This document shows positions 7,513-36,532 of a DNA stretch of 64,000 bases, one piece after another; within the stretch, counting starts at the first letter, position 1, and every line of letters starts with the position of its first letter. A program made the translations under genes and the position numbers. The notes beneath the pieces were generated by a model. That model did no database searches, had not been told where the DNA came from, and saw nothing but the letters and a program-made list of their open reading frames with translations. This stretch comes from Paenirhodobacter ferrireducens (GTDB lineage: Bacteria; Pseudomonadota; Alphaproteobacteria; Rhodobacterales; Rhodobacteraceae). The stretch spans positions 1-64,000 of the forward strand of contig NZ_SAVB01000007.1 of the NCBI RefSeq assembly GCF_004022265.1, written 5' to 3'.

Positions 7513-7540
7513 ACAGCCGGAAAGCGAGAAGAAAGAGACG

Positions 7541-17816: not shown

Positions 17817-17820
17817 CGGT

Positions 17821-18540: not shown

Positions 18541-18680
18541 GCGCGCATCGCAAGGCCAAGCGTGGTGCCGCGCAGCAGCGCCACCAGCGCGAGGATGGCG
18601 ACCGCCGTCACTCCGGTCTCGACCAGTTGCAGCACCGGCAGCCGCAGCGGCCCGAGCTGCACCACCGAGGCGAGGAATGC
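18531..18680 (-). pseudogene. LivH-type permease, internal fragment
   Basis: In a different minus-strand frame from the LivM remnant, the sequence reads A-A-F-L-A-S-V-V-Q-L-G-P-L-R-L-P-V-L-Q-L, then L-R-G-T-T-L-G-L-A-M-R-A-A-G and a stop at 18531-18533. This is the middle of a LivH-like permease (the T-x-L-G-x-A-M-R-A segment is diagnostic). Both ends are missing: the 5' side meets the kinase remnant on the other strand and the 3' side is joined out of frame to LivM. It looks like the scar of a deletion inside a former livHM operon. Confidence 0.6.
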
Positions 18681-18684
18681 TGCG

Positions 18685-19650: not shown

Positions 19651-19764
19651 GCGGCGGCGGGGATTGGCCCGTTGCTACCCGCCCGGGAGAGCGTCGAGGC
19701 CCTTTTCCTTGACAACAGCACGCCTCGCTACCTTACCATGCGGCACCCAAAAGGGGCTTCAGAC

Positions 19765-21573
19765 ATGGCAGAGAGCATCCAGAAGGAGGACTGGGAACGC
19801 TTTCGGGCCTTGGGGAGCGTGCCCCCAAGCATCCGCGAAATCGTATTCCGGTCCTGGATCCGGTCGCAGCGGCGTGACGACGTGCATGCCCTGCGGCAGG
19901 CGCCCTGTGTGGCGGGCAATGAACTGGACGAGCTGCGCGGCCGAAACGCGCGGCTGCGTCAGGCTGCGCAGGCAGCGGTGCGGCGCACGGGCTACATGCT
20001 CGACGACGCCGGCGCGATGCTGCTGCTGGCCGACCGCTCCGGTGTGATCCTCGACGCGACGGGGGATTCCCGGATCCGCGCCCGCGGCGAGGAGAACCAC
20101 CTGCATCCGGGCGGGCGATGGGGCGAGGACGCCATCGGCACGAATGCGATCGGCACTGCGCTGCATCTGGCGAAACCCACCACCATCTCTGGGGTCGAGC
20201 ATTTCTGCGAGGCGATCCAGCGCTGGTCCTGCGCCGCCGCACCGATCAGCGACCCGCGCACTGGCCGGGTGCTGGGGCTGATCAACATCTCCTCGCCCTC
20301 GACCGACGCGCTGCGCCGGGGCGCGGCCTTCTCGGTCAGCCTGGCGCTGCAGATCGAGGAGGCGTTGCGCAGCATCGGGCTGCAGGAGCACCAGCGGCTG
20401 GTGGATCAGCTGCTGTCGCGCGGCGTGTCGCGCGGCGACGAGATCATGCTGCTGAACCGGCACGGCCAGCAGATCTGGTCAAGCCTGCGCGACGCCGGCG
20501 CGGGCGCCGGCGGCACCGGCAGGGGCGTGCTGCCGGGCCCCGTGCCCGAGCCGGACGGCGATGTCGGTCAGCTTGCCGAGCGGATGCGTGCGGTGCTTCC
20601 CGGTGCGGGGGTCGACATCGTCTCGGACGGCAAGGACCCGATCGGCCTGATCGTGACGCTGGCCCGGGCGGGCCGGCGCCGGCCTGCGGCCGCGGCGCCC
20701 GATCTCGCGGCGATCGCCCGGTCGGGGCCGGCGATGGCGGGGATCTGCGCCGAGGCGCAGCGGATTGTCGAGGCAGGCGTTGCGCTGCTGCTCAAGGGCC
20801 CGACCGGCAGCGGCAAGGAAACCCTTGCCCGCGCCCTGCATGCCGACGGGCCGCTGTCCGATCTGCCGCTTGCGGCGCTCGATTGCAGTCTGCTTGATGA
20901 CGTGGCGCTGCGCGGCGGGGCGGCGACGGATGCGGTGCTGCGGCTGACCGAAAGGGGCGGCACGCTGATCCTCGACGAGCCGGCGGAAACGCCCGCCGCC
21001 GTGCAGCCGCTGCTGGTCCAGAGCCTGACCCAGCTGGCGCGCGGTGCCGAGGGGCGGGTGCAGGTGATCAGCCTGTCCTCGGTGCCGCTGTCCGAGCGGC
21101 TGGCCGAGGGACGGTTGCGGCCGGATCTCTATTACCGTCTCTCGGGCGCGGTGGTGCATCTGCCGGGCCTGGCCGAGCGGCGCGAGGACCTGCCGGCGCT
21201 TGTCGCCGATCTTGCCGCACACAGCCCCGAACGGCGGCGCGGCGGCGCGCTGCGCTTTACCCCGGGGGCGATGCTGCGGCTGCAGGCGCATGATTGGCCC
21301 GGCAACCTGCGCGAGCTGCGCAACATGGTCGAACGGCTGTCGGCGACCTCGTTCAGCCGGCTGATCGACGTGGCCGACCTGCCGCCCGCCATCGCCCAGG
21401 GCCGGCGGGCCGGGCGCGAGCCGACGCTGCGCGACCGCGAGCGGGCGGAAATCCTCGATGCCCTCGCCGAATGCGGCGGCAACATGACCGGGACGGCGCG
21501 GCGCCTCGGCATCTCGCGCTCGACGCTTTATCTCAAGCTCGACCAGTACGGCGTGCCGCGCGGCCGCCGCTGA
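19765..21573 (+). CDS. acxR: Acetone carboxylase operon regulator, AcoR/Fis-type, lacking the GAFTGA loop
   Basis: 602 residues: N-terminal region with a GAF sensor (about 80-200), an AAA+ domain with Walker A G-P-T-G-S-G-K-E (near 345) and Walker B L-I-L-D-E-P (near 400), and a C-terminal Fis-type helix-turn-helix (G-G-N-M-T-G-T-A-R-R-L-G-I-S-R-S-T-L-Y). It sits directly upstream of acxABC in the same direction, as acxR does in Xanthobacter and Rhodobacter. The usual E-S-E-L-F-G and GAFTGA loop between the Walker motifs is absent, so contact with sigma-54 as in NtrC is unlikely. The ATG at 19765 has AAGGGG upstream; the open frame extends further 5' only because a kinase pseudogene lacks its stop. 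Confidence 0.85.
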   Translation: MAESIQKEDWERFRALGSVPPSIREIVFRSWIRSQRRDDVHALRQAPCVAGNELDELRGRNARLRQAAQAAVRRTGYMLDDAGAMLLLADRSGVILDATGDSRIRARGEENHLHPGGRWGEDAIGTNAIGTALHLAKPTTISGVEHFCEAIQRWSCAAAPISDPRTGRVLGLINISSPSTDALRRGAAFSVSLALQIEEALRSIGLQEHQRLVDQLLSRGVSRGDEIMLLNRHGQQIWSSLRDAGAGAGGTGRGVLPGPVPEPDGDVGQLAERMRAVLPGAGVDIVSDGKDPIGLIVTLARAGRRRPAAAAPDLAAIARSGPAMAGICAEAQRIVEAGVALLLKGPTGSGKETLARALHADGPLSDLPLAALDCSLLDDVALRGGAATDAVLRLTERGGTLILDEPAETPAAVQPLLVQSLTQLARGAEGRVQVISLSSVPLSERLAEGRLRPDLYYRLSGAVVHLPGLAERREDLPALVADLAAHSPERRRGGALRFTPGAMLRLQAHDWPGNLRELRNMVERLSATSFSRLIDVADLPPAIAQGRRAGREPTLRDRERAEILDALAECGGNMTGTARRLGISRSTLYLKLDQYGVPRGRR

Positions 21574-21639: not shown

Positions 21640-21711
21640 ATGCCGATCCGGCCGGGCTGCATCCTGTTCTGACGCCACGGGGAGGTGGCGCCAGGGGAGG
21701 AGGAAAGACCC

Positions 21712-23865
21712 GTGCCATTGGACAAACAGACAAAACGCAGCGTGCAGGTGCTTGGCATCGACGCCGGCGGGACGATGACCGACACGTTCTTCGTCGACAG
21801 CGACGGCGACTTCGTCGTCGGCAAATCGCAGTCCACGCCGCAAAACGAGGCGCTCGGCCTGATCGCCAGCTCGAAGGAAGGGCTGGAACATTGGGGCCTG
21901 ACGCTTGAAGAGGCGCTCTCGGGGATCCAGACCGGCGTCTATTCCGGCACCGCCATGCTCAACCGCGTCGTGCAGCGCAAGGGGCTGCGCACCGGGTTGA
22001 TCGTCAATGCGGGGATGGAGGATTTCCACCGCATGGGCCGCGCCGCGCAGGCCTATCTCGGCTTTGCCTACGAAGACCGCATCCACCTGAACACGCATTA
22101 CTATGACGAACCGCTGGTGCCGCGCCACCTGACCCGCGGCGTGATGGAGCGGATCGACATGTCGGGCAACGTGGTGATCCCGCTGCGCGAGGACAGCGCC
22201 CGCACCGCTGCGCGCGAACTGATTGCGCAGGAGGTCGAGGGCATCGTGATTTCGCTGCTGCACTCCTACCGCAACCCCGCGCATGAGCGGCGGGTGCGCG
22301 ATCTGGTCGAGGAAGAGGTCGCGGCCGCGGGCAAGACCATCCCGGTCTTCGCCTCGACCGACTATTACCCGGTGCGCAAGGAAACCCATCGTACCAACAC
22401 CACGATCCTCGAGGCCTTCGCCGCCGAACCCTCGCGCCAGACGCTGAAGAAGATCACCACCGCCTTCAAGGAGAACGGTTCGAAATTCGATTTCCGGGTG
22501 ATGGCGACGCATGGCGGCACGATCTCGTGGAAGGCGAAGGAACTCGCCCGCACCATCGTGTCGGGGCCGATCGGCGGGGTGATCGGGGCGAAGTATCTGG
22601 GCGAGGTGCTGGGCTATTCGAACATCGCCTGTTCCGACATCGGCGGCACCTCCTTCGACGTGGCGCTGATCACGCAAAACGAGCTGACGATCAAGAATGA
22701 CCCCGACATGGCACGGCTGCTGCTGTCGCTGCCGCTGGTGGCGATGGATTCGGTCGGTGCGGGGGCGGGCAGCTTCATCCGGCTCGATCCCTACACCAAG
22801 GCGATCAAGCTCGGCCCGGATTCGGCGGGCTATCGCGTCGGCGTCTGCTGGGAGGCCTCGGGGATCGAGACGGTGACCGTTTCGGACTGCCATGTGATCC
22901 TCGGCTACCTGAATCCCGACAACTTCCTTGGCGGTCAGGTCAAGCTCAGCCGCGAGCGCGCCTGGAACGCGATGAAGGAACAGGTCGCCGATCCGCTCGG
23001 CCTGTCGGTCGAAGATGCGGCGGCGGGCGTCATCGAGCTGCTCGACAGTGACCTGCGCGACTATCTGCGCTCGATGATCTCGGGCAAGGGCTACAGCCCC
23101 AGCAGCTTCGTGTGCTTCAGCTATGGCGGCGCGGGGCCGGTCCACACCTACGGCTACACCGAGGGGCTGGGCTTCGAGGACGTGATCGTGCCGGCCTGGG
23201 CCGCGGGCTTCTCGGCCTTCGGCTGTGCGGCGGCGGATTTCGAATACCGCTATGACAAATCGCTCGACATCAACATCGCCACTGATGCCAGCGAGGACCT
23301 GAAGACGGCGCAGGCGCAGACCCTGCAGGCGGCCTGGCAGGAGCTGAAGGAGCGCGTGCTCGAGGAATTCGAGATCAACGGCTACAGTCCCGACAAGGTG
23401 CAGCTGCAACCGGGCTTCCGCATGCAGTATCGCGGCCAGCTCAATGACCTCGAGATCGAATCTCCGATCATCGAGGCGCAGGGCGCCGAGGACTGGGACA
23501 AGCTGGTCGAGGCCTTCAACGACACCTATGGCCGCGTCTACGCCGCCTCGGCCCGCTCGCCCGAGCTCGGCTATTCGGTGACCGGGGCGATCATGCGCGG
23601 CACGGTGCCGATCCCGAAGCCGAAGATCCCGAAGGAAGAGCTTCGGGGTGCGACCCCGCCGGAAGAGGCGAAGCTCGGCAGCCGCAAGTTCTATCGCCAC
23701 AAGCAGTGGGTCGATGCGCAGCTTTACCAGATGGAAAAGCTGCAGCCGGGCAACCGCATCACCGGCCCGGCGGTGATCGAATCCGACGCCACGACCTTCG
23801 TCGTGCCTGGCGGTTTCGAGACTTGGCTCGACGGGCACCGCCTGTTCCACCTCAAGGAAGTCTGA
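21712..23865 (+). CDS. acxA: Acetone carboxylase beta subunit
   Basis: 717 residues, as I recall the length of the Xanthobacter AcxA protein. It belongs to the hydantoinase A/acetone carboxylase beta family; the N-terminal nucleotide-binding segment reads L-G-I-D-A-G-G-T-M-T-D-T-F. The enzyme carboxylates acetone with bicarbonate to acetoacetate at the cost of ATP, as an alpha2-beta2-gamma2 complex in the cytoplasm; the beta subunit carries the ATP-dependent activation site. The chosen start is GTG at 21712 behind GGAGGAGGAAAG. It is the first gene of acxABC, 138 bases after acxR, with a 23-base gap to acxB. Confidence 0.93.
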   Translation: MPLDKQTKRSVQVLGIDAGGTMTDTFFVDSDGDFVVGKSQSTPQNEALGLIASSKEGLEHWGLTLEEALSGIQTGVYSGTAMLNRVVQRKGLRTGLIVNAGMEDFHRMGRAAQAYLGFAYEDRIHLNTHYYDEPLVPRHLTRGVMERIDMSGNVVIPLREDSARTAARELIAQEVEGIVISLLHSYRNPAHERRVRDLVEEEVAAAGKTIPVFASTDYYPVRKETHRTNTTILEAFAAEPSRQTLKKITTAFKENGSKFDFRVMATHGGTISWKAKELARTIVSGPIGGVIGAKYLGEVLGYSNIACSDIGGTSFDVALITQNELTIKNDPDMARLLLSLPLVAMDSVGAGAGSFIRLDPYTKAIKLGPDSAGYRVGVCWEASGIETVTVSDCHVILGYLNPDNFLGGQVKLSRERAWNAMKEQVADPLGLSVEDAAAGVIELLDSDLRDYLRSMISGKGYSPSSFVCFSYGGAGPVHTYGYTEGLGFEDVIVPAWAAGFSAFGCAAADFEYRYDKSLDINIATDASEDLKTAQAQTLQAAWQELKERVLEEFEINGYSPDKVQLQPGFRMQYRGQLNDLEIESPIIEAQGAEDWDKLVEAFNDTYGRVYAASARSPELGYSVTGAIMRGTVPIPKPKIPKEELRGATPPEEAKLGSRKFYRHKQWVDAQLYQMEKLQPGNRITGPAVIESDATTFVVPGGFETWLDGHRLFHLKEV

Positions 23866-23888
23866 CGGTCTCAGGGAGGAGATAAGTC

Positions 23889-26204
23889 ATGAACATGCAG
23901 ACCTCGGTCAAGACCCGCGGCATCGTGCGCGGCGGCGAGACCCTGAAGGAGCACCGCGACCGGCTGATGGAGGCCACGAAGCGGACCAAGCACTATGCCG
24001 GCCTGTCGAAGATGGCGCTGCGCGACGCCGAGCCGATCAAGTACAACAAGCTGTTCTCGCGCCTGCGCGCCGGGGTGGTGGATGCGCGCGAGACCGCGAA
24101 GAAGATCGCTGCAAGCCCGATCGTCGAGCAGGAGGGGGAACTGTGCTTCACCCTCTACAATGCCGCGGGCGATTCGATCCTGACCTCGACGGGGATCATC
24201 ATCCACGTCGGCACCATGGGTGCGGCGATCAAATACATGATCGAGAACGGCTGGGAGGAGAACCCGGGCATCCGTGACGGCGACATCTTCTGCAACAACG
24301 ACAGCCTGATCGGCAATGTTCACCCCTGCGACATCCACACCATCGTGCCGATCTTCCACGAGGGCGAGCTGATCGGCTGGGTCGGCGGTGTGACCCATGT
24401 GATCGACACCGGCTCGGTCGGGCCGGGCTCGATGTCGACGGGGCAGGTGCAGCGCTTCGGCGACGGCTATTCGATCACCTGCCGCAAGATCGGCGAGAAC
24501 GACACGCTGTTCCGCGACTGGCTGCACGAGAGCCAGCGGATGGTGCGCACCACGCGCTACTGGATGCTGGACGAGCGCACCCGCGTCGCCGGCTGCCACA
24601 TGATCCGCGATCTGGTGAAGGAGGTGATCGCCGACGAGGGCATCGAGTCCTACTGGAAATTCGCCTATGAATCGGTCGAGCATGGCCGCGTCGGCCTGCA
24701 GGCCCGGATCAAGGCGATGACCATTCCGGGCAAGTATCGCCAGGTCGGTTTCGTCGACGTGCCCTATGCGCATGAGGATGTCCGCGTCCCCTCGGACTTC
24801 GCCAAGGTCGACACGATCATGCACACGCCCTCGGAAATCACCATCCGCGGCGACGGCACCTGGCGGCTGGATTTCGAGGGCTCCTCGCGCTGGGGCTGGC
24901 ACACCTACAACGCCCATCAGGTGAGCTTCACCTCGGGCATCTGGGTGATGATGACGCAATCGCTGATCCCCACCGAGATGATCAACGACGGCGCCGCCTA
25001 TGGCACCGAGTTCCGCCTGCCGAAGGGCACCTGGATGAACCCCGACGACCGGCGCGTCGCCTTCAGCTACTCGTGGCACTTCCTCGTCAGCTCGTGGACG
25101 GCGCTCTGGCGCGGGCTCTCTCGCGCCTATTTCGGCCGCGGCTATCTCGAGGAGGTCAACGCCGGCAACGCCAATACCTCGAACTGGCTGCAGGGCGGGG
25201 GCTTCAACCAGTATGACGAGATCCATGCGGTGAACTCGTTCGAATGCGCGGCGAACGGGGTCGGTGCCTCGGCGCATATGGACGGGATCAGCCATGCGGC
25301 GGCGGTGTGGAACCCCGAAGGCGACATGGGCGACATGGAGATCTGGGAACTGGCCGAGCCGCTCGTCTATCTCGGCCGGCAGATCAAGGCCTCTTCGGGC
25401 GGCGCAGGCAAGTATCGCGGCGGTTGCGGCTTCGAGAGCCTGCGCATGGTCTGGAACGCCAAGGACTGGACGATGTTCTTCATGGGCAACGGCCATATCT
25501 CGTCGGACTGGGGGCTGATGGGCGGCTATCCCGCGGCCTCGGGCTATCGCTTCGAGGCGCATGATACCCGGCTGAAGGAGATCATCGCCGAGGGCGGCAC
25601 CATCCCCTGCGGTGGCGACACCGACCCGGAAAACCCGACCTGGGAGGCGATGCTGCCCGACGCCCGGATCAAACGCGACAAGCAGGCGATCACCACCGAG
25701 GCGATGTTCAAGGACTATGACCTCTACCTCAACTACATGCGCGGCGGGCCCGGCTTCGGCGATCCGCTCGACCGCGAGCCGCAGAAGGTGGCCGATGACG
25801 TGAACGGCGGATATTTGCTGCCGCGCTTCGCCGACAGTGTCTATGGCGTGGTTCTCGCCGATGCCGGCGACGGCATGAAGGGCGTCGATGTCGCCGCCAC
25901 CGAAGCCCGGCGCCGCGCCATCCGCAAGGCCCGGATCGAGGAGTCGGTGCCGGTCAGCGACTGGATGGCCGGCGAGCGCGAGAAGATCCTGAACAAGGAG
26001 GCGGGCGTGCATGTGCAGCAGATGTTCGCGGCCTCGTTCAAGCTCGGGCCCCGCTTCGAACAGGATTTCCGCGCCTTCTGGAACCTGCCGGCGGAGTGGA
26101 AGCTGATGGAAGCGGACCTGCCGATCCCCTCCTACGGGCGGGAATACTCGATGGACATCTCGGAACTGCCCGACGTCAAGACCGTCCAGTTCGTCGAGGA
26201 ATGA
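23889..26204 (+). CDS. acxB: Acetone carboxylase alpha subunit
   Basis: 771 residues of the hydantoinase B/acetone carboxylase alpha family, near the usual length of about 775. The segment V-E-Q-E-G-E-L-C-F-T-L-Y-N-A-A-G-D and later N-N-D-S-L-I-G-N-V-H-P-C-D-I-H match the core of this family; the histidine/aspartate-rich region is where the Mn-containing carboxylation site lies in the known enzyme (family knowledge). Ribosome site AGGGAGGAG precedes the ATG at 23889. It acts with AcxA and AcxC to make acetoacetate from acetone. Confidence 0.93.
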   Translation: MNMQTSVKTRGIVRGGETLKEHRDRLMEATKRTKHYAGLSKMALRDAEPIKYNKLFSRLRAGVVDARETAKKIAASPIVEQEGELCFTLYNAAGDSILTSTGIIIHVGTMGAAIKYMIENGWEENPGIRDGDIFCNNDSLIGNVHPCDIHTIVPIFHEGELIGWVGGVTHVIDTGSVGPGSMSTGQVQRFGDGYSITCRKIGENDTLFRDWLHESQRMVRTTRYWMLDERTRVAGCHMIRDLVKEVIADEGIESYWKFAYESVEHGRVGLQARIKAMTIPGKYRQVGFVDVPYAHEDVRVPSDFAKVDTIMHTPSEITIRGDGTWRLDFEGSSRWGWHTYNAHQVSFTSGIWVMMTQSLIPTEMINDGAAYGTEFRLPKGTWMNPDDRRVAFSYSWHFLVSSWTALWRGLSRAYFGRGYLEEVNAGNANTSNWLQGGGFNQYDEIHAVNSFECAANGVGASAHMDGISHAAAVWNPEGDMGDMEIWELAEPLVYLGRQIKASSGGAGKYRGGCGFESLRMVWNAKDWTMFFMGNGHISSDWGLMGGYPAASGYRFEAHDTRLKEIIAEGGTIPCGGDTDPENPTWEAMLPDARIKRDKQAITTEAMFKDYDLYLNYMRGGPGFGDPLDREPQKVADDVNGGYLLPRFADSVYGVVLADAGDGMKGVDVAATEARRRAIRKARIEESVPVSDWMAGEREKILNKEAGVHVQQMFAASFKLGPRFEQDFRAFWNLPAEWKLMEADLPIPSYGREYSMDISELPDVKTVQFVEE

Positions 26205-26267
26205 ACCGCCGCGGTGGCGCTCTGACCGGCGCCGCCCCCCGACAAGGCCAGATCAAGGGAGGAACCG

Positions 26268-26768
26268 ATGGCCTACACGAAAACCAAGATCAAGGACCTG
26301 GTGGACGGCAAGATCGACCGCGACACGCTGCATACCATGCTGTCCACGCCGAAGGACAAGGAGCGCTTTCAGATCTATCTCGAGATCCTGCAGGAGCAGG
26401 TGGAGTGGGACGACCCGATCATCCTGCCGCTCGGCCCGAAGCTCTATATCGTCCAGCGCAAGTCGGACCGGAAATGGATGATCCGCAGCCAGGCCGGCTA
26501 TGACTTCTGCCCCTGGAACGAGAACTGGAAGCTGCACGCCCGGATCCGGGTGCGCAACACCGCCGCGCAGATGGAAGAGCTTTATCCCCGCCTGATGGCG
26601 CCCTCGCCCGACTGGCAGGTGATCCGGGAATATTTCTGCCCGATCTCGGGCGACCTGCTCGATGTCGAGGCGCCGACGCCCTGGTATCCGGTGATCCATG
26701 ACTTCGAACCGGATATCGACACCTTCTACAAGGACTGGCTGGGGCTCGCCGTGCCCGAACGGACCTGA
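26268..26768 (+). CDS. acxC: Acetone carboxylase gamma subunit
   Basis: 166 residues, the expected size of the roughly 20-kDa gamma subunit. It includes C-P-W-N-E-N-W-K-L and the E-Y-F-C-P-I-S-G-D-L-L-D-V-E segment; the paired cysteine regions suggest a small metal-binding or structural fold as in known AcxC. GGGAGGAACCG stands before the ATG at 26268. It completes the acxABC operon and is followed by a strong hairpin. The whole operon appears intact, so the strain should be able to use acetone with CO2. Confidence 0.93.
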   Translation: MAYTKTKIKDLVDGKIDRDTLHTMLSTPKDKERFQIYLEILQEQVEWDDPIILPLGPKLYIVQRKSDRKWMIRSQAGYDFCPWNENWKLHARIRVRNTAAQMEELYPRLMAPSPDWQVIREYFCPISGDLLDVEAPTPWYPVIHDFEPDIDTFYKDWLGLAVPERT

Positions 26769-26855: not shown

Positions 26856-28373
26856 TCAGGGGGTTGCGGCCGCCGGCTCTGCGGGCGCGCGCAGCGCGTT
26901 GCGCCGGCGGGCCTGTTCGGGCGTGTAGCCGGGGCCATGGACCGCACCGAAGGCCCGGGCTGCGGCAAGCGTCATCTCCTCGGCGCAGGGCAGCGGGTCG
27001 GGCCCGTCGATGCGGAACGACACCGGCGAGAGCGGCCCGAAGAGCAGCGCCTGTTCGAGAGAGGGGCGGCGCGGGATCTGAGGCTCGACCCCGGCGCGCT
27101 GCGCGAAATCGAGTGCCATCATGTTCATCGGCCGCGCGGGCTGGGCCGCGGTCAGCCCCTCGGCCATCTCGGCCGGCACGGGCATGAGCTCGGGCGTGTC
27201 CCAGCAGCCGGCGATGTAGCGCGCCTGCAACTCCAGCACCGGGAAATAAGGGCCGACGAGATCGTAGAGCCCGACAAAGGCGAGCCCGTCGAGATCGGGG
27301 TGGAAACTGTCGGCGAAAAGCGTCAGCCCCTGCGCCGACAGCTCGACCGTCCGGGCGATCTCGGGCGAGAGCCAGGGCAGCGACAGCGCGAAGCCGGTGC
27401 CGAAGAGAAGGCTGTCGAAGTCGCCCTCGCGGCCATCCGCAAAGCGCACGCGGCGGCCCGAGACCGACGCGATCCAGGGACGCACCGCGATCCGCCCCTC
27501 GGCCACGGCGGGCAGGAAGCCCTGGCACTGGGTGATGCCCGCTGCGAAGACGTCGGGGTCGGCCTCAAGGGCGCCATATTGCTCGGGCGTGCCCGCGGCC
27601 TGCAGGATCTGCGCCTTCAGCCCCGCCGCCGCGGCGGCCGGCCCGCGCGCGCCCTCAAGGGCGGCGGCGCGGGTGAACAGTACATGCTCGGCCGGCACCC
27701 CGGCGATCAGCTTCGGCAGCACATAGCGCTGGCGGCGATAGCTGATCGTCACCTGCGCCCCGGCCTGCGCCAGCGTCGTCGCGATCTCGAGTGCGCTGAT
27801 CGAGCAGCCGGCGACCAGCACCGAGGCGTCGCGATAGCGCGCCACACCGCTGAACTGGCCCGAATGGCCGGTGCCGAACTTGCCCGAGAAGGTCTCGAGC
27901 CCCGGCACCTGCGGGATCGTGCCGCGCAGATAGCGGCCCGAGGCGACGACGACGCGGTCGAAGCGCTCGGTCCGGGTCTCGCCGCCGCGGCGCGAGCGGA
28001 TCTCCCACCCGCCCGCCTCTGCCCGCGCAAGCAGCTCGACCCGGGTGCCGAAGCGGATCGCGCGGCGCAGGCCGAAGCGGTCGCTGTAGCGGTCGAGATA
28101 GCGGTGCATGTCCTCGCGGCCCGGATAGGTCGGCGTGCCCGGCGGATGATCGAGGTCGGAGAACGCCGTCATCACCCGGCTGGTGTTGGTGACCATGCCG
28201 GGCCAGGTGGCGCTGTGGAGCCCGTTCGGGTTCCAGTGCCCGCCGAGATCGCGCGAGGCCTCGAACAGGACCGGCGCAAAGCCGCGCGCCTTGAGCCAGC
28301 GGGCGGTGACAAGCCCGGCGGGACCGGCGCCGATGATCGCGACCGAGGGGCGGGATGCGGAAGGATGTGTCAT
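26856..28373 (-). CDS. FAD/NAD(P)-binding flavin-containing monooxygenase
   Basis: 505 residues. The N-terminal FAD motif is V-A-I-I-G-A-G-P-A-G-L (residues 11-21); E-A-S-R-D-L-G-G-H-W-N follows, typical of flavin-containing monooxygenases. The segment F-S-G-K-F-G-T-G-H-S-G-Q-F near residue 163 corresponds to the FMO/Baeyer-Villiger fingerprint, and V-A-G-C-S-I-S-A-L-E-I-A near 190 to the NADPH site. Such enzymes oxidise N, S or carbonyl groups with O2 and NADPH. The gene is divergent from the PPOX operon, and the spacer holds four TGCTAA-type repeats, so both are probably controlled by the regulator encoded at 28970. Substrate unknown; convergence with acxC does not prove a role with acetone. 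Confidence 0.88.
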   Translation of the reverse strand: MTHPSASRPSVAIIGAGPAGLVTARWLKARGFAPVLFEASRDLGGHWNPNGLHSATWPGMVTNTSRVMTAFSDLDHPPGTPTYPGREDMHRYLDRYSDRFGLRRAIRFGTRVELLARAEAGGWEIRSRRGGETRTERFDRVVVASGRYLRGTIPQVPGLETFSGKFGTGHSGQFSGVARYRDASVLVAGCSISALEIATTLAQAGAQVTISYRRQRYVLPKLIAGVPAEHVLFTRAAALEGARGPAAAAAGLKAQILQAAGTPEQYGALEADPDVFAAGITQCQGFLPAVAEGRIAVRPWIASVSGRRVRFADGREGDFDSLLFGTGFALSLPWLSPEIARTVELSAQGLTLFADSFHPDLDGLAFVGLYDLVGPYFPVLELQARYIAGCWDTPELMPVPAEMAEGLTAAQPARPMNMMALDFAQRAGVEPQIPRRPSLEQALLFGPLSPVSFRIDGPDPLPCAEEMTLAAARAFGAVHGPGYTPEQARRRNALRAPAEPAAATP

Positions 28374-28429
28374 GAAAGCCTCTGATGATTGACATGCGGC
28401 TTACTTCGCGTAAAGCGCTTGGAGGGGCT

Positions 28430-28482
28430 TGCTAAATGCCTGCTAAGGGCGCGCGGCTTCGGCTAAATTTCTGCTAAAGACG
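28430..28482. promoter_or_regulatory. Four-copy TGCTAA repeat operator between the monooxygenase and PPOX operons
   Basis: TGCTAA starts at 28430 and 28441, a variant GGCTAA at 28461, and TGCTAA again at 28472: spacings 11, 20 and 11 bases, i.e. two pairs of direct repeats, all on one face of the helix. An 11-bp period is what PhoB/OmpR-type winged-helix proteins use. A GATATT at 28483-28488 could be the -10 of the PPOX operon. The same layout recurs at 30973-31021 upstream of the cytochrome c gene. Confidence 0.7.
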
Positions 28483-28508
28483 GATATTGGAACGGAAGGG
28501 ACATCGCC

Positions 28509-28973
28509 GTGGACGCCTCGCTTGTCCGTTTCCTGCTGCGCCCCGTGATGATCCTCGTGGGCACCGTCGACCCCGCCGCGCGGCCCGAGATCGGCCGCGG
28601 CGTCGGCAGTCTCGTGGTGCCCGAGGCCGGGCGGATCGACGTTCTGGTGTCGCGCTGGCAATGGCCGGCGACGATCGCGAATGTCGAACGCGCGGGGCGC
28701 GCCGCGGCGACCTTCTCCCGCCCCGCCGATTACGAGACCTATCAGATCAAGGGCCGCGCCACGCTGCGCGCGGCGGGCGCGCCCGAGGCCGAGACCGCCC
28801 GCGCCTATTGCCGTGACACGCTGGCGGCGCTGATGGAGCTGGGCATGGCCCATGATCTTGTCGCGCATTGGCAGTCGACACGCGATCTGGTCGTGGTCTC
28901 GCTGTCGGTGGACGAGGTCTTCTCGCAGACGCCGGGCCCGCTTGCCGGGCAGCGGATCGGGGGCGCGACATGA
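28509..28973 (+). CDS. PPOX-fold (pyridoxamine 5'-phosphate oxidase-like) putative FMN-binding protein
   Basis: 154 residues with the beta-barrel pattern of the PPOX/flavin-reductase-like superfamily: I-L-V-G-T-V-D, V-G-S-L-V-V-P, then A-A-T-F-S-R-P and Y-Q-I-K-G-R-A-T. No catalytic assignment is possible; relatives bind FMN, F420 or heme. GTG start at 28509, 32 bases after the last operator repeat. The stop overlaps the next gene by ATGA, so it is co-translated with the PPOX-GAF regulator, which contains the same fold. It may deliver or sense the same cofactor (inference). Confidence 0.75.
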   Translation: MDASLVRFLLRPVMILVGTVDPAARPEIGRGVGSLVVPEAGRIDVLVSRWQWPATIANVERAGRAAATFSRPADYETYQIKGRATLRAAGAPEAETARAYCRDTLAALMELGMAHDLVAHWQSTRDLVVVSLSVDEVFSQTPGPLAGQRIGGAT

Positions 28974-30316
28974 TCCGTCTGGCCGATCTCGACGATTGCT
29001 TCGAGGGGGTGATCCCCTCGGTCGTGGCGACGTGTGGCGCCGACGGCCTGCCGAACATCTCCTACCTGTCGCATGTGAACCGGGTCGACGACGACCACAT
29101 CGCGCTGTCGAACCAGTTCTTCGGCAAGACCGCCGCGAACCTGCGCCGCAACCCCTGCGCGACGATCCTGCTGGTCGATGGCCGCACCGGCGCGCAGGTG
29201 CGGGTCGAGGCGATCTTCGTGCGCTCGGAGACCGAGGGGGCGCTGTTCGATCGGGTCGCGGCACAGCTTGCCGCGAGTTCGGCGCAGGTCGGGATGGAGG
29301 CGACGATGCAGCTGAGGGCGGTCGACGTCTTCCGGGTGCTGTCGCTGCAGGCAACGCCGACGCAGGCGCCGGTGCCGCCCGCCGATCCCGATGCCCGGCC
29401 CGATCTGCCGGCGCTCGCCCATGCGGTGGCGGCGATCGACACTGCGCCCGATCTGGGCGGCGCCTGCGAGGCGGCGCTTGATGCCGCGATGGCGCTGCTT
29501 GGCGCCGATGCCGCGATGATCCTGATGCGCGACCATCCGCGCGATGTGCTGATGACGGTGCTGAGCCGCGGCTACGAGACCGGCGGCGCGGGGGCCGAGG
29601 TGCCCTTTGGCATCGGTGCCATCGGCATCGCGGCGGCGACGCGGCAGGTGATCCGGGTCGGCGATCTGGGCCGGGTGCGGCGGCTGAATACGGCGATCGA
29701 GGCAAGCAGCGAACAGGAGGCGCGCAGCCGCCGCATCCGCCTGCCAGGCCTTGGCGGCGCGCTGAGCCACATGGCGGTGCCGCTGTGCAGCGGCGGTGCG
29801 CTGGCGGGCGTTCTCTTCGTCGAGGCGCGCCGGCGTCTGGCCTTCGGCCGCGAGCCGGAGGCGGCGGCGATGATCCTCGCCCGCCTGCTCGCCGCGGCGA
29901 TGCGGGCCTCGGAACAGAGCCCGGCCCCGGCGGCCGAACCGCCCCTGCCTGCAACGGTGACGGGCGATGGCGGCCGCAGCCTGCGCGTGCGCCATTACGG
30001 CTATGACGACAGCCTCTTCATCGACGATGCCTATATCATCAAGGGCGTCGCCGGCCGGATCCTCGCTTTCCTGATCGGCAGCCATCTGGCCGAGGGCCGC
30101 GACGTCTTCAGCAACCGCGAGATCCGGCTGGCGGCGTCGCTGCGGCTGCCGGGCTATCGCGACAATCTGGAGACCCGGCTGATCCTGCTGCGCCGGCGGC
30201 TCGAGGAGAAATCCGCCCCGATCCGGCTGGTCTCGGCGGGGCGCGGGCAGATCCGGCTGGTGCTCGACGGGCGCCCCGAACTGGTCGGGGAGGCGCCCGG
30301 CGAGGGGCGGGCGTGA
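28970..30316 (+). CDS. Three-domain regulator: PPOX fold + GAF + OmpR/PhoB-like winged helix
   Basis: 448 residues. Residues 1-130 form a PPOX-like flavin-binding fold (V-V-A-T-C-G-A-D-G-L-P-N-I-S-Y-L-S, S-N-Q-F-F-G-K-T). Residues about 150-310 resemble a GAF domain (alanine-rich, ending in M-A-V-P-L-C-S-G-G-A-L-A-G-V-L-F-V). The C-terminus, about 340-435, resembles an OmpR-class winged helix: V-F-S-N-R-E-I-R-L-A, N-L-E-T-R-L-I-L-L-R-R-R-L and I-R-L-V-S-A-G-R-G-Q-I-R-L. ATG at 28970 overlaps the upstream PPOX gene. I infer a cytoplasmic one-component sensor that reads a flavin, B6 or redox state and binds the 11-bp TGCTAA repeats nearby. I know no characterised homologue. Confidence 0.72.
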   Translation: MIRLADLDDCFEGVIPSVVATCGADGLPNISYLSHVNRVDDDHIALSNQFFGKTAANLRRNPCATILLVDGRTGAQVRVEAIFVRSETEGALFDRVAAQLAASSAQVGMEATMQLRAVDVFRVLSLQATPTQAPVPPADPDARPDLPALAHAVAAIDTAPDLGGACEAALDAAMALLGADAAMILMRDHPRDVLMTVLSRGYETGGAGAEVPFGIGAIGIAAATRQVIRVGDLGRVRRLNTAIEASSEQEARSRRIRLPGLGGALSHMAVPLCSGGALAGVLFVEARRRLAFGREPEAAAMILARLLAAAMRASEQSPAPAAEPPLPATVTGDGGRSLRVRHYGYDDSLFIDDAYIIKGVAGRILAFLIGSHLAEGRDVFSNREIRLAASLRLPGYRDNLETRLILLRRRLEEKSAPIRLVSAGRGQIRLVLDGRPELVGEAPGEGRA

Positions 30317-30357
30317 CCATGGCCGAGGCCGGGCCGCCCTGCGGCCGGCCGTCGCGC

Positions 30358-30855
30358 TCAGGGCGCGGGCATCGTCACCCGATAGAAGGGCGCGGGCGCC
30401 GGCGCGCCCGGGGCCACCGGCTCGGGCACCGGGTTCTCGATCGGCGGCTGTGCGCGCAGCCAGGCGACCAGCGCGGCAAGGTCATCGGCGTTCAGCGCCG
30501 CATAGCTCGCCCAGGGCATGACCGGCGCGAGCACCCGCCCGTCGGGCAGCACGCCGGTGGTGATCGCGGTGGCGATCTCGGCCTCGCTCCAGTCGCCGAG
30601 CCCGGTCTTGTCGGGCGTCAGGTTCGGCGGCCAGAAGGTGCCGAGCCCGGGAAGTTCGAAGCCGACGGTGCCGCCCGCCAGCCCCTTCTCGACGACCGGT
30701 ATGCCGTCGGGGGCGCGCGGCATGTGGCAGCCGGCGCAATCCATAATGCGCGCGAGATAGGCGCCGCGCGCGATGGGATCGGGGGGGGCTGCGTGGACGG
30801 TCCGCGTCGGGATGATGAGTGACAGTGTTGCAAGGGCGAGGATCCGAAGGGTCAT
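30358..30855 (-). CDS. Periplasmic monoheme cytochrome c
   Basis: 165 residues. A Sec signal peptide (M-T-L-R-I-L-A-L-A-T-L-S-L-I-I, cleavage near A-A-P) leads to the single heme site C-A-G-C-H (near residue 40). A likely distal methionine lies in V-L-A-P-V-M-P-W-A-S-Y, followed by the L-N-A-D-D-L-A-A-L-V-A-W-L-R C-terminal helix typical of class I cytochromes c linked to dehydrogenases. I chose the ATG at 30855 with GGAG seven bases upstream; an ATG at 30867 has no ribosome site. It converges with the PPOX-GAF gene 42 bases away, and its upstream region carries the TGCTAA repeats, which suggests it belongs to the same regulon as electron carrier. Confidence 0.82.
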   Translation of the reverse strand: MTLRILALATLSLIIPTRTVHAAPPDPIARGAYLARIMDCAGCHMPRAPDGIPVVEKGLAGGTVGFELPGLGTFWPPNLTPDKTGLGDWSEAEIATAITTGVLPDGRVLAPVMPWASYAALNADDLAALVAWLRAQPPIENPVPEPVAPGAPAPAPFYRVTMPAP

Positions 30856-30972
30856 CTGTGTCTCCATGAAAGGGCAGGGGCCGTCCCGCCCTGCCGGGCG
30901 GGGGCGGCGGATGTGGCGTGGGGCGGGGATGTCCTGATGGCCGGACCCTAGGCCATACGGAGCCAATCCGGA

Positions 30973-31021
30973 TGCTAAGAGAATGCGAAGGGCACCGCCG
31001 CGCTTGCTAAAAGAGTGCTAA
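30973..31021. promoter_or_regulatory. Second four-copy TGCTAA repeat operator, upstream of the cytochrome c gene
   Basis: TGCTAA starts at 30973, a variant TGCGAA at 30984, then TGCTAA at 31005 and 31016: spacings 11, 21 and 11, almost identical to the 11-20-11 layout at 28430-28477. It lies 118 bases upstream of the minus-strand cytochrome gene, with the repeats pointing away from it, the same relative direction as at the monooxygenase gene. Matching architecture at two sites within 2.6 kb strongly suggests one shared regulator. Confidence 0.7.
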
Positions 31022-31322: not shown

Positions 31323-31715
31323 ATGACTGCTCAGAAGCCGACAGCGCGGGGCGGGAACCCGACCGAGACCGCAGGATGCACGGATGGGGCAGCGCCCGGC
31401 CATCCGGATCACGCGGCTCTCGCGCAAAACGAGATCGTGATTCTGGCCGAGACCTTTCGCCTGCTCGGCGATCCGTCCCGGCTGAAGATCCTGCTGAGCT
31501 GCATGTCCGGTCCGATCTCGGTCGGTGACATTGCGGGCAGGCTGGATTTGTCGGTGTCGTTGGTCAGCCACCATCTGCGCCTTCTGCGCGGGGCGCGGCT
31601 GGTGAGGGGCGAGCGTCAGGCGAAGCAGATTTTCTATGCGATCGCCGATCAGCACGTCCGTCAGGTTCTCGAGGATATGGCGACGCATATTGCAGAAGAG
31701 CACGGCGATGAGTGA
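31323..31715 (+). CDS. SmtB/ArsR-family metal-sensing repressor
   Basis: 130 residues with the ArsR winged helix (L-G-D-P-S-R-L-K-I-L, then L-D-L-S-V-S-L-V-S-H-H-L-R-L-L-R). The C-terminal helix has D-x-H near the start and H-x-x-E eleven residues later (D-Q-H, then H-I-A-E), exactly the spacing of the alpha5 zinc site of SmtB/CzrA. The CadC/ArsR alpha3 cysteine motif (E-L-C-V-C) is absent. It therefore should sense Zn(II) or Co(II) through alpha5. It precedes a ZntA-type pump, with an SmtB-like palindrome between them. Confidence 0.9.
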   Translation: MTAQKPTARGGNPTETAGCTDGAAPGHPDHAALAQNEIVILAETFRLLGDPSRLKILLSCMSGPISVGDIAGRLDLSVSLVSHHLRLLRGARLVRGERQAKQIFYAIADQHVRQVLEDMATHIAEEHGDE

Positions 31716-31729
31716 GCGGCGGCCGAAAA

Positions 31730-31767
31730 TTGAAAACACTTGAATAAGTGTTCAACTGTTGTATGGA
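31730..31767. promoter_or_regulatory. ArsR/SmtB-type operator and overlapping promoter before the metal pump
   Basis: AACACTT (31735-31741) and AAGTGTT (31746-31752) pair perfectly around GAAT, and TTGAA/TTCAA (31730-31734, 31751-31755) extend the dyad. TTGAAT (31740-31745) and TATGGA (31762-31767) 16 bases apart form a plausible promoter that the dyad covers. The imperfect 12-2-12-like layout is that of SmtB-family operators, so metal-free repressor would block pump transcription. Confidence 0.75.
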
Positions 31768-31835
31768 TTCGTTCCGTGGCCACAGTTGGCCGCCACGACC
31801 GTGCATCTGTCGTGCCGGCGGGCGGGAGATCGGAA

Positions 31836-34034
31836 ATGGCACCTGAACACGCGATGCAACCGGGCGGTGAACGGCTTGGCTTTCATGTCGGCGGCATGGA
31901 TTGTGCGAGCTGCGCCGGCAAGATCGAGACGGCGCTGAACCGACTGGACGGGATCTCCGATGTCGAGGTCAATTTCGCCGCCGAGACGCTGGAGCTGACC
32001 CTGGCTGAAGGCGGCAGGACCGCGGTCGCGGAGATCGAGAAGACGATCCGCGGTCTCGGCTTCGGCGTCGCTGCCACGTGCGCCCCCGGCGCCGGGTCCG
32101 GTTCCCCTGCCGATGCGGTGCCGGCGTCGGAGCCGCGCTCTGCGCGCTGGTGGCAAAGCCGCAAGGGCCGGCTGGTTGTCGGCCTCGGTCTGCTGATGGG
32201 GGTGGCCTATGCCGTGGCCCTCGGCATCCCGCGCTATGCCGACTGGATCTTCGCCGTGGCGGTGCTGGCGGGCGTGCTGCCCTTTGCCCGCAAGGCGGTT
32301 GCCCTTGCCCGGTCCGGCTCTCCGTTCTCGATCGAAACTCTGATGGTTGTCGCATGTCTCGGCGCGCTGCTGATCGGCGCGGCCGGAGAGGCGGCGGCGG
32401 TCGTGTTCCTCTTCGCCGTGGGCGAGCTGCTCGAAAGCGTGGCGGCGGGGCGGGCGCGGGCCGGCATCAAGGCCCTTGCCTCGCTTGTTCCGAAGACCGC
32501 GCTGCGACTTGCGGCCGACGGCGGCCTGTGCAGCGTTCCGGCCGCCTCGTTGCGGGTGAACGATCTCGTTCTGGTCCGGCCGGGCGACCGGGTGCCCGCC
32601 GATGGCGAGATCCTCGAGGGCAGCTCGAGCCTCGACGAGTCGCCGATCACCGGCGAATCCGTGCCGCGCGCAAAAGGTCCGGGGGCGCGCGTGTTCGCCG
32701 GCTCGATCAATGTCGACGGCGTGCTGCGGGTCCGCGTCGAGACGGCCGCGGCCGACAACACCATCGCCCGCATCATCCAGCTCGTCGCGCAGGCGCAGTC
32801 CGCCAAGGCGCCGACCGCCCGCTTCATCGAAACCTTCAGCCGTTCCTATACTCCGGCGGTGATGCTGATCGCGGCACTGACCGTCATCGTCCCGCCGCTG
32901 GCGACGGGCGCCGACTGGCAAACCTGGATCTACCGCGGCCTTGCGCTGCTGCTGATCGCCTGCCCCTGCGCGCTCGTGCTCTCGACGCCGGCTGCCATCG
33001 CCTCGGGTCTGGCTGCCGGCACGCGCCGCGGTCTGCTGATCAAGGGCGGCAAGACGCTCGAGACCATCGGCAAGGTGCGCGCGATCGCCTTCGACAAGAC
33101 CGGCACCCTGACCGAGGGGCGGCCGCGCGTCACCGAAATCCGTGCTTTCGGGGCGATTGCGGCGCCGCAGGTGATTGCGCTTGCGGCGGCGGTCGAGACC
33201 GGTTCGGGGCATCCGCTGGCAAGGGCGATCCTCGGCCGCGCCGCTGCGGAAGGGATCGCGGTTGCGGTCGCGACGGAGGCCTCGGCCACCGCCGGCAAGG
33301 CGGTCCATGCCACGGTGGAGGGACGCCGCCTTGCCGTCAGCTCGCCGGCCCATGCCGCCGAGGTTGCCACCCTCGGCGCGGCGGAGCGTGCCGCCATCGA
33401 GGCGCTCGAAGAGCGCGGCAATACGGTTGCTGTTCTCTTCGATCAGCAGACGCGGGAGGTCATCGGCCTTGTCGGCCTGCGCGACGAGCCGCGGCCGGAT
33501 GCGCGCGACGGGGTGGCCCGGCTCGCGGCGATGGGGATTCGCTCGGTCATGCTGACCGGCGACAACCGGCGCACCGCCGAGGCGATTGCCGAGGGCCTTG
33601 GTGTCGAGTGCCGCGCCGGGCTTTTGCCGCAAGACAAGCTCGATATCATCCGCGAGATGAAGCGGAGTTCCCGGGTGGCGATGGTCGGTGATGGCATCAA
33701 TGACGCGCCGGCTCTGGCGACGGCCGATGTCGGCATCGCCATGGGCGGCGGGACCGATGTGGCGATCGAGACGGCGGATGCCGCGCTGCTGAACAGCCGG
33801 GTCACGGATGTCGCCCATCTTGTCGCCCTGTCGCGCGCGACGATGGCCAATATCCATCAGAATGTGGCCTTTGCACTGGGGCTGAAAGGTCTTTTCCTGG
33901 TCACCACCGTGCTTGGCCTCACCGGGCTGTGGATTGCGGTGCTTGCCGATACCGGCGCGACGGCGATCGTCACGCTGAATGCGCTGCGGCTGTTGCGCTT
34001 CCGGGAAACGCCGCCGGTCCACGGCGGCCACTGA
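31836..34034 (+). CDS. zntA: Zn/Cd/Pb-exporting P1B-type ATPase (ZntA-like)
   Basis: 732 residues. An N-terminal heavy-metal-associated domain has G-M-D-C-A-S-C (Cys23, Cys26). The membrane C-P-C motif, the phosphorylation site D-K-T-G-T, the S-G-H-P motif and G-D-G-I-N-D-A-P-A-L are all present. The last helices contain L-G-L-K-G-L-F-L-V-T-T and L-A-D-T-G-A-T, the lysine and aspartate that define the P1B-2 subgroup transporting Zn2+, Cd2+ and Pb2+. ATG 31836 follows GGGAG; a TTG in the operator is an unlikely start. It is controlled by the adjacent SmtB-like repressor and confers metal resistance. Confidence 0.93.
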   Translation: MAPEHAMQPGGERLGFHVGGMDCASCAGKIETALNRLDGISDVEVNFAAETLELTLAEGGRTAVAEIEKTIRGLGFGVAATCAPGAGSGSPADAVPASEPRSARWWQSRKGRLVVGLGLLMGVAYAVALGIPRYADWIFAVAVLAGVLPFARKAVALARSGSPFSIETLMVVACLGALLIGAAGEAAAVVFLFAVGELLESVAAGRARAGIKALASLVPKTALRLAADGGLCSVPAASLRVNDLVLVRPGDRVPADGEILEGSSSLDESPITGESVPRAKGPGARVFAGSINVDGVLRVRVETAAADNTIARIIQLVAQAQSAKAPTARFIETFSRSYTPAVMLIAALTVIVPPLATGADWQTWIYRGLALLLIACPCALVLSTPAAIASGLAAGTRRGLLIKGGKTLETIGKVRAIAFDKTGTLTEGRPRVTEIRAFGAIAAPQVIALAAAVETGSGHPLARAILGRAAAEGIAVAVATEASATAGKAVHATVEGRRLAVSSPAHAAEVATLGAAERAAIEALEERGNTVAVLFDQQTREVIGLVGLRDEPRPDARDGVARLAAMGIRSVMLTGDNRRTAEAIAEGLGVECRAGLLPQDKLDIIREMKRSSRVAMVGDGINDAPALATADVGIAMGGGTDVAIETADAALLNSRVTDVAHLVALSRATMANIHQNVAFALGLKGLFLVTTVLGLTGLWIAVLADTGATAIVTLNALRLLRFRETPPVHGGH

Positions 34035-35120: not shown

Positions 35121-36532
35121 GGCGTTTCCTCGGACAGGGGCAGGATCAGGGCGGCGCGGAAGCCCGCGGGGCCGGGGGCTAGCTCGAGCCGGCCGCCGAA
35201 GGCTTCGGCCACCGCCCGCGCGATCGACAGGCCCAGCCCGGCAGAGCGCCCGCGCGAGGCGGCATTGCGCTCGAACCGCGCGCCGATCCGGGCAAGCGTT
35301 GCGGCATCGGGGCCGGGGCCCGCGTCGCGCACCCACAGCACCGCCGCGCCGTCCTCGATCTCGGCGCCCATCCGCACCGCCCCGGCGCCGTGGCGCAGGG
35401 CATTCGCCAGCAGGTTCTTCGCCGCCTCGGTCAGTGACAGATCATCGGCCAGCACCATCACCGGCGCCGCGCCGATCTCGAGCGCCACGTCGCGTCCGGG
35501 GGCGATCAGCGCGTGGTCCTGCGTCTCGATCACCGCCAGCGCCACGTCGCGCAGGTCGACCGCCACCCGCCGCGCCTCGGCGGTGCGGTGGATCACCAGC
35601 GCGCGCGACAGCATCTGGTCGAGCAGATCGCCGAGCGAGCGCGAGCGCCGCACGATCCGCACCATCGTCGCGCGGGCGATCTCGGGGTCGGTCTCCTCGG
35701 CGGCAAGCTCGGCCTGCACCCGCAGCGCCGCGACGGGGGTGCGCAGCTGATGCGCGCTGTCCGAGATCAGGTTGCGCATCGAGGCGATCTGCCGCTCGAG
35801 CCGGCGCATGAAGTCGTTGAGCGCGCCGATCATCCCCGCGACCTCGGCCGGCACCGGCGTGTCGATCGGCGTCAGGTCGTAGGGGTCGCGGGCGGCAAGA
35901 TCGCGGGCAAGCCCGACGAGCGGGCGCATCGCGCTTTCGACCACCAGCGCGCCGAGCACGATCAGCAGCACCCCGGCAAAGCCGAGCACGATCAGCGCGT
36001 CGCGGGTCAGGCCAAGCGCCATGGCGTTGCGCGCGCGCAGGGTCTGGCCGACGGTGACAAGGATCGTGCCGGAGAAATCGCGCTCGGCGAAGCGGCGCGG
36101 CACGGTGACGAAGCGCGCCCGCTCGGCCGCGGCAAGCCCGGTGAATTCGGCATCGAAAAAGCCGCCGCCGGCCTGACGGATGGTTTCGGGCAGGGGCGTG
36201 TCCTGGCCGGTGATAACCTGGCCGCCCGGGCTGCGCACGGAATAGGTGATGCGGTCGTCGGGGGCGAGGGCCAGCAGCTGGAACGCCGCGGTGGGCAGAT
36301 CGACGAGCGGCACGCCGCCGCTGATGGTGATTGCGCCGGCGATCTCGTTCGCGGCGCCGAGCAGCAGCCGGTCATAGGAGGCGCGCGCCGCGACCCGGCC
36401 ATAGGCAAAGGCCGCGAGCGCCATCACGATGCCGCCGACCACCAGCAGCGACAGCACCGCCCGCACCACGCGCGATTTCAGCGAGCGCGTCGCGGCGACG
36501 GGGGCCGGCAGGGCGGGGCCGGCCTCAGTCAT
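35117..36532 (-). CDS. tctE: TctE-like sensor histidine kinase
   Basis: 471 residues: a first membrane helix (about 25-45), a periplasmic domain to about 180, a second helix (about 180-205), HAMP, a histidine-kinase dimerisation domain with S-D-S-A-H-Q-L-R-T-P (phospho-His near 262), and an ATPase domain with N-L-L-A-N-A-L-R-H-G, D-A-G-P-G and G-L-G-L-S-I-A. The periplasmic double-Cache-like region and gene order fit TctE, which senses citrate or other carboxylates. It overlaps the response regulator gene by eight bases. Confidence 0.88.
   Translation of the reverse strand: MTEAGPALPAPVAATRSLKSRVVRAVLSLLVVGGIVMALAAFAYGRVAARASYDRLLLGAANEIAGAITISGGVPLVDLPTAAFQLLALAPDDRITYSVRSPGGQVITGQDTPLPETIRQAGGGFFDAEFTGLAAAERARFVTVPRRFAERDFSGTILVTVGQTLRARNAMALGLTRDALIVLGFAGVLLIVLGALVVESAMRPLVGLARDLAARDPYDLTPIDTPVPAEVAGMIGALNDFMRRLERQIASMRNLISDSAHQLRTPVAALRVQAELAAEETDPEIARATMVRIVRRSRSLGDLLDQMLSRALVIHRTAEARRVAVDLRDVALAVIETQDHALIAPGRDVALEIGAAPVMVLADDLSLTEAAKNLLANALRHGAGAVRMGAEIEDGAAVLWVRDAGPGPDAATLARIGARFERNAASRGRSAGLGLSIARAVAEAFGGRLELAPGPAGFRAALILPLSEETP

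Follow-up and report, generated by a model that had tools for sequence, protein, structure and literature searches.

A predicted PPOX-GAF-winged-helix transcription regulator and its direct-repeat arrays in Paenirhodobacter ferrireducens and other proteobacteria

In a 64,000-nucleotide stretch of DNA from the alphaproteobacterium Paenirhodobacter ferrireducens (contig NZ_SAVB01000007.1, positions 1 to 64,000; the whole stretch is referred to here as the window), a gene for a putative regulator that joins a PPOX (split-barrel) domain, a GAF domain and a predicted winged-helix DNA-binding domain is flanked by two arrays of short direct repeats, which raises the question of whether the protein and the repeats belong together and, if so, what the protein does at its locus. 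Considering the evidence described below, it is very probable that the protein is a one-component transcription activator that acts on neighboring genes through the repeat array, and the most likely outcome of its action is that a neighboring oxygen-handling or detoxifying enzyme is turned on.

A preliminary description of the sequence had proposed two four-repeat arrays with spacings of 11-20-11 and 11-21-11, and reading the sequence confirmed both (Table 1). Array 1, which stands 31 nucleotides (nt) ahead of the gene for a small PPOX-like partner, consists of TTGCTAA (28429), CTGCTAA (28440), CGGCTAA (28460) and CTGCTAA (28471), and array 2 of ATGCTAA (30972), ATGCGAA (30983), TTGCTAA (31004) and GTGCTAA (31015), such that two of the eight units (GGCTAA and TGCGAA) depart from the originally suggested TGCTAA. 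The repeats themselves are real, but the consensus unit had to be corrected to TT(C/G)CTAA followed by a 4-nt gap. Since spacings near 11, 21, 32 and 43 correspond approximately to whole helical turns, the units should lie on one face of the DNA. None of 2000 dinucleotide shuffles of each intergenic region reached the array score. In the genome that holds the window (G000, 4.07 Mb), a search for four repeats with up to two mismatches matched at the two window arrays only (one exact match with a gap of 16, array 1, and one match with a single mismatch with a gap of 17, array 2), compared to one match at gap 16 and none at gap 17 for the reversed pattern. The two-repeat half site with up to one mismatch was also found only twice in this genome, both times at the regulator locus. 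The idea of a distributed regulon was rejected, as the search with up to two mismatches found no third four-repeat site in G000.

The regulator has a scattered distribution. Relatives at an E-value of 1e-20 or better were detected in 3 of 18 genomes of the genus, 20 of 394 of the family, 14 of 385 of the class and 8 of 398 of the phylum (overlapping samples that each include G000, with a few matches covering part of the protein), as well as in 19 plasmid records, and in 15 of these records the match spans 80% or more of the protein. The closest named relative found is Sinirhodobacter (now Paenirhodobacter) hankyongi, and its regulator is 98% identical. A total of 48 loci were compared; L001 and L047 are one stretch, of which the window is a near-copy. 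A tree of 47 rows, in which L047 was left out and the groups were named by hand, has two well-supported sides, clade 1 (24 rows) and clade 2 (23 rows). Two of the regulator genes, those of L060 and L078, are each interrupted by one in-frame stop and were entered in the tree as shortened proteins. In addition, three matches of 121-129 residues (L027, L039 and L040 in G137, G587 and G677) cover the PPOX domain only and may be relatives with other architectures.

The layout of the arrays recurs at these orthologous loci, beside PPOX-GAF regulators in both alpha- and betaproteobacteria. The preliminary description had named the lack of this layout at such loci as a result that would refute it, and the check came out in its favor. 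When the regions upstream of the regulator were scored for a four-repeat array with any middle gap between 14 and 27, 26 of the 48 loci reached 33 or more out of 44, and 40 shuffles of each locus never gave the observed value; the best middle gap was 19-21 in 23 of these 26 loci. In 8 of the 23 clade 2 rows, three units, mostly spaced 22-11, are located behind the regulator on the other strand. The array site follows the target: in clade 1 it is found between the divergent genes, in clade 2 rows past the regulator and ahead of an FAD oxidase gene of the same orientation, and in L072, L073 and L078 ahead of hemerythrin genes with other orientations. A Cupriavidus plasmid (L083) and a genome of another class (L078) also carry relatives with arrays beside them. 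In L075 and L083, one more repeat-like unit (TTGCGAA), the fifth, was noticed 11 nt outside the four-unit array.

The exact arrays link the repeats to the regulator. Among the 394 family genomes, an exact four-unit array is present in only three (G000, G046 and G275), each time at a clade 1 regulator, compared to one match for the reversed pattern; the fourth clade 1 carrier in this sample, G356, has an array with two mismatches. In a set of 21 genomes or records searched with up to two mismatches, 14 of 17 matches fell at the regulator locus, in 12 of the 21; all nine exact matches were at such a locus, and the three matches elsewhere had two mismatches each. The second array at a cytochrome c gene was seen in this genus only; the Rhizobium etli locus (L082) has a cytochrome c gene, and the scan found no second array there.

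A further link is provided by the distance between the array and a candidate -10 element. The dinucleotide TA occurs 21-23 nt from the nearest unit in 33 of 35 arrays, whereas other offsets have a mean of 1.0 and a maximum of 3. These 35 arrays from 33 loci remain of 39 arrays printed for 37 loci after removal of near-copies (L001, L047, L069 and L005); 14 of the 39 (array 2 of the window, two of L052 and those of 11 other loci) came from a separate scan, some of them chosen after their -10 element had already been seen by eye. The promoter-proximal repeat was set by hand after reading the sequence in L003 and L006 and moved one unit out in the upstream array of L052, and the count without these three is 30 of 32. 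Before any choice by hand, 9, 12 and 5 of 23 loci had TA at offsets of 20, 21 and 22, respectively; these offsets start from the seventh base and are one lower than those in the count of 35 arrays. The best hexamers aligned on this TA are TATAAA, TATAGA and TATAAC, and the aligned promoters have no TTGACA-like -35 element between array and TA. When read in the direction TTAGSA (S, C or G), 33 of the 35 arrays face a gene of a family that recurs at regulator loci, and the other two (L077 and the upstream array of L052) face open frames without such kin. Both the restriction of exact arrays to these loci and the fixed distance to the -10-like element support the suggestion that regulator and repeats belong together.

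What the arrays face differs between lineages, so that the proposal of one fixed flavin regulon does not hold. In clade 1, the divergent gene encodes a hemerythrin-like protein in 11 rows, a flavin-containing monooxygenase (FMO) in seven, and a cupin with arylamine N-acetyltransferase and YceI in six; counted over the 48 loci, with L001 and L047 both included, the FMO is divergent at eight (cluster c6). In clade 2, an FAD-binding oxidase gene lies downstream in 10 rows, and there are a CxxCH protein in four, hemerythrin neighbors in four and other neighbors in five. These families were assigned by Pfam, except that the N-acetyltransferase was taken from annotation and the CxxCH motifs, which have no Pfam match, were seen by eye. 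A theme of oxygen, electrons and chemical modification of small molecules appears to be common to these targets and would be compatible with a redox or xenobiotic signal. With regard to the window, it is a fair inference that the FMO and the cytochrome c gene are both controlled by the regulator, and the arrays face both; for the FMO it draws on the array position and the co-occurrence with the clade 1 regulator. Of 18 genus genomes, two have an FMO match at an E-value of 1e-60 or better, and these are exactly the two carriers of this regulator. Cytochrome c is the safer predicted target of the two because its TAGGGT fits the geometry and the FMO side lacks the conserved TA. The preliminary description had also assumed control of the regulator's own operon, which is unsupported: on the regulator side, where offsets of 10 to 31 were considered, TA recurs at the same offset in no more than 3 of 23 loci.

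The protein itself has the sensor domains originally read from its sequence. In the window regulator, Pfam detects PNPOx_N with 48.6 bits (cut-off 28.1) and GAF with 41.7 bits (cut-off 22.4), and at E up to 1 both are present in all 45 aligned relatives (L047, L060 and L078 were left out), none of which matches Response_reg (the receiver domain), the sigma-54 activation domain or the bacterial transcriptional activation domain of SARP activators. Profile comparison with the PDB placed the PPOX domain nearest to 3in6, an FMN-binding protein (E 2e-5), and to HutZ, a heme protein, with HupZ as a weak match, and both flavin and heme are therefore possible ligands; the flavin sensing suggested in the preliminary description went beyond this evidence. 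The cut-offs of the NCBIfam subfamilies for F420-dependent Rv1155 PPOX proteins and HutZ were missed (27.5 of 79.05 bits and 14.7 of 225 bits, respectively). The full-length AlphaFold2 model is poorer than that of the C-terminal domain, with a predicted local distance difference test (pLDDT) of 68; its GAF domain has a Foldseek TM-score on target of 0.82 with the GAF domain 3ci6, and the 50 best matches listed for the full-length model are GAF and phytochrome structures.

The C-terminal domain has no Pfam match in the window regulator, and the copies of Pfam and NCBIfam used contain no model dedicated to it; in the last 110 residues of the 45 members no Pfam family recurs, with seven families found in one member each at E 0.03 or worse. 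When modeled alone with five relatives, it was predicted with a pLDDT of 85.4 and winged-helix topology. The top Foldseek matches are the DNA-binding domains of AdeR and SaeR (probability 1.00, E 0.012 and 0.016), and among the best 50 are also those of PrrA, BaeR, ArlR and ToxR and, at lower rank, of PhoB, interspersed with some unrelated winged-helix proteins. This domain was found in 4 of 61 genomes (its own and those of relatives), each with a PPOX-GAF regulator. A relation between the third base of the repeat (C or G) and the recognition helix was considered and dropped after inspection by eye, the window pairing G repeats with a clade 1 helix.

The small partner gene is a constant companion of the regulator. 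An open frame bearing QTPG lies directly 5′ of the regulator in all 48 loci (shortened in L006, where the frame appears broken at 7461-8001 and a 98-residue open part beside the regulator remains). Across 45 partner rows, the QTPGPxAG motif is invariant at all of its defined residues except the second P, which is kept in 41. Although no Pfam match reached the cut-off (16.1 of 28.1 bits) and no PDB match was found by sequence, the partner profile matches the PPOX domain of the regulator with a probability of 72% (E 3e-5), compared to at most 1% for five column-shuffled controls (L001, L047 and L006 left out). PPOX proteins are dimers as a rule, which leads to the idea of a hetero-dimer of regulator and partner. 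We tentatively suggest, as a proposal that may well prove wrong, that the PPOX domain and the partner form a hetero-dimeric split barrel holding flavin or heme at its interface, that the redox or ligand state of this barrel, acting jointly with the GAF domain, governs the loading of a chain of winged helices onto the array, and that one operator has been moved to re-wire the module to FMO, hemerythrin, FAD oxidase, cytochrome c, or cupin with arylamine N-acetyltransferase.

The domains, the partner, the arrays, their link to the regulator and the fixed -10 geometry were computed directly. The location of the array just ahead of the -35, the alignment of its direct repeats along one DNA face and the OmpR-like fold suggest, taken together, activation by a chain of protomers. 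In such a mechanism, the C-terminal winged helix would bind the 7-bp direct repeats TT(C/G)CTAA at their 11-bp period, protomers would assemble head to tail along one DNA face, and the array, directly upstream of the target -35, would serve to recruit RNA polymerase to promoters whose -35 is poor, in the window probably those of the FMO and cytochrome c genes. The PPOX domain, the co-encoded partner and the GAF domain would act as the sensor, with binding of a cofactor or ligand gating that of DNA. Binding of the arrays by the regulator, activation rather than repression and the sensor role of the PPOX pair are predicted features.

Several results weigh against this interpretation. With regard to the arrays, the loose pattern is not enriched by count (9 and 8 matches at the two gaps in the 21 genomes or records versus 12 and 7 when reversed), nor is the half site (2 matches in G000 versus 0-3 in regulator-free relatives and 0-5 per strand reversed); the evidence for the arrays rests on place and exactness and not on the number of loose matches. 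The pattern missed the regulator locus in 9 of the 21 genomes or records, and 11 of the 48 loci have no scored array, although weaker repeats are visible at five of these (L051, L053, L055, L057 and L073), with no repeats seen at the other six (L054, L058, L060, L070, L071 and L076). The arrays of close relatives are also not independent of each other. Two arrays miss the TA, L072 and the FMO side of array 1, the latter at a proposed target. With regard to the protein, none of the 45 members matches Trans_reg_C (the OmpR/PhoB winged helix) at E up to 1, and the Foldseek E-values are weak, 0.012 at best. Kinship with OmpR domains by sequence was rejected, as the profile probability of 0.5%, from shallow alignments and with six OmpR-type regulators from the same loci, is below the 1.1% of the receiver-half control. 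The C-terminal domain looks like an OmpR/PhoB winged helix in its predicted fold but is not placed in that family; the domain make-up first proposed is retained for PPOX, GAF and a winged helix, and not for the OmpR/PhoB assignment by sequence.

Among the alternatives, it is conceivable but unlikely that the regulator binds the arrays and mainly represses the divergent gene or its own operon until a ligand releases it. Many one-component regulators are autorepressors, and the clade 1 array lies between two divergent genes, in the window close to the partner gene; however, the nearest repeat is located 21-23 nt upstream of the -10-like element and beside the -35, which is an activator position, the regulator side has no fixed geometry, and in clade 2 rows the array can be away from the promoter of the regulator.

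Still less probable is that the arrays are bound by another protein, for example CtrA or a response regulator of the OmpR family, and have an indirect link to the regulator. CtrA recognizes TTAA-N7-TTAA, which also has an 11-bp period, and a response regulator with Trans_reg_C is encoded in the window at 36525-37196. On the other hand, exact arrays were found at PPOX-GAF regulator loci only, the association of arrays with the regulator holds in two deep clades, and CtrA is not known from the Cupriavidus plasmid or the other-class genome that carry them. Extracts of PMC11264516 describe CtrA as an alphaproteobacterial regulator with its site at the -35 in most activated promoters, which resembles the position seen here, and as an activator of roughly 100 genes, whereas the exact or near-exact arrays described here number one or two in a genome and lie at the regulator locus. 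The reading of the arrays as chance or simple-sequence artefacts can be dismissed. TGCTAA by itself is not a rare word in the window (7 matches versus 3.99 expected), and the loose pattern is no commoner than its reverse, but the shuffles gave no such score, the layout is kept in other orders and the distance to the -10-like element is fixed.

Activation through the array would have parallels in known systems, from each of which the regulator differs. Among the literature matches listed, from a search with subscription papers mostly outside its scope, no title concerned a PPOX-GAF DNA-binding protein or a TT(C/G)CTAA repeat. The predicted C-terminal fold is shared with OmpR/PhoB response regulators such as PhoP and PhoB, and extracts of PMC4832192 describe for Mycobacterium PhoP 7-bp direct repeats with a 4-bp spacer, an 11-bp period, and tighter binding to three or four repeats in a row; the present regulator, however, has PPOX and GAF domains in place of a receiver and lacks the Trans_reg_C match. 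SARP activators also have an OmpR-type fold, and according to extracts of PMC10936776 the repeats of AfsR precede the -10 at mutual distances of 11 or 22 bp. In SARP promoters the last repeat is 8 bp from the -10, compared to 21-23 nt for the nearest repeat here; the absence of their activation domain is a second difference. PPOX/PNPOx split-barrel proteins (3in6, HutZ and the Rv1155 family) resemble the N-terminal domain and the partner, but here the domain is fused to GAF and DNA-binding domains and the subfamily cut-offs are missed, and GAF one-component regulators such as NifA and its kin share the GAF sensor but have the sigma-54 activation domain that is absent here.

From left to right, the locus contains acetone carboxylase genes, the divergent FMO gene, array 1, the partner gene, the regulator gene, the cytochrome c gene on the minus strand, array 2, an ArsR-type regulator and a heavy-metal P-type ATPase (Table 1). 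The FMO has a best E of 5e-41 against FMOs in the PDB. The acetone carboxylase set (21685-26768) comprises three genes with matches to the hydantoinase A, hydantoinase B and acetone carboxylase gamma families, and it adjoins a gene for a sigma-54 activator (18862-21573) with GAF, AAA lid and Fis-type helix-turn-helix matches. Residues 19-197 of this activator, at its N-terminus, match APH (phosphotransferase), an unusual fusion if the start codon is right. Between its gene and a peptidase-like gene, an open frame of 350 residues (17800-18852) has no Pfam match at E 1e-5. On the other side, the ArsR/SmtB-type regulator and the ATPase occupy 31323-34034, and array 2 ends about 300 nt upstream of them. 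No RNA element was found in the window by Rfam at gathering score.

Table 1. Positions of the regulator, its partner, the repeat arrays and the candidate targets in the window
Feature	Position	Strand	Basis or remark
Flavin-containing monooxygenase (FMO) gene	26856..28373	-	Pfam FMO-like, 160 bits; divergent candidate target
Expected place of FMO -10 element	28402..28407	-	GAAGTA, conserved TA missing; 22 nt after array 1
Array 1	28429..28477	+	Candidate operator; reads TTAGCA towards FMO
Small PPOX-like partner gene	28509..28973	+	QTPGPxAG motif; overlaps regulator start by 4 nt
PPOX-GAF-winged-helix regulator gene	28970..30316	+	Pfam domains, alignment of relatives, AlphaFold2
N-terminal PPOX (split-barrel) domain	28970..29359	+	Residues 1-130 (approximate); PNPOx_N
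GAF domain	29450..29899	+	Residues 161-310; Pfam GAF
Predicted DNA-binding domain, OmpR/PhoB-like winged-helix fold	29978..30283	+	Residues 337-438; AlphaFold2 and Foldseek
Cytochrome c gene	30358..30855	-	Pfam Cytochrom_C, 26.5 bits (cut-off 21.3); candidate second target
Cytochrome c -10-like TAGGGT	30945..30950	-	22 nt after nearest repeat
Array 2	30972..31021	+	Candidate operator; reads TTAGCA towards cytochrome c

These proteins make up a regulator class whose operator and promoter geometry are defined and whose partner is encoded alongside, and they are present in Alphaproteobacteria and at least one other class. As the operator is precise, many targets are predictable from sequence. If the PPOX pair does sense a cofactor, the split-barrel flavin and heme folds would join the sensor domains of transcription factors.

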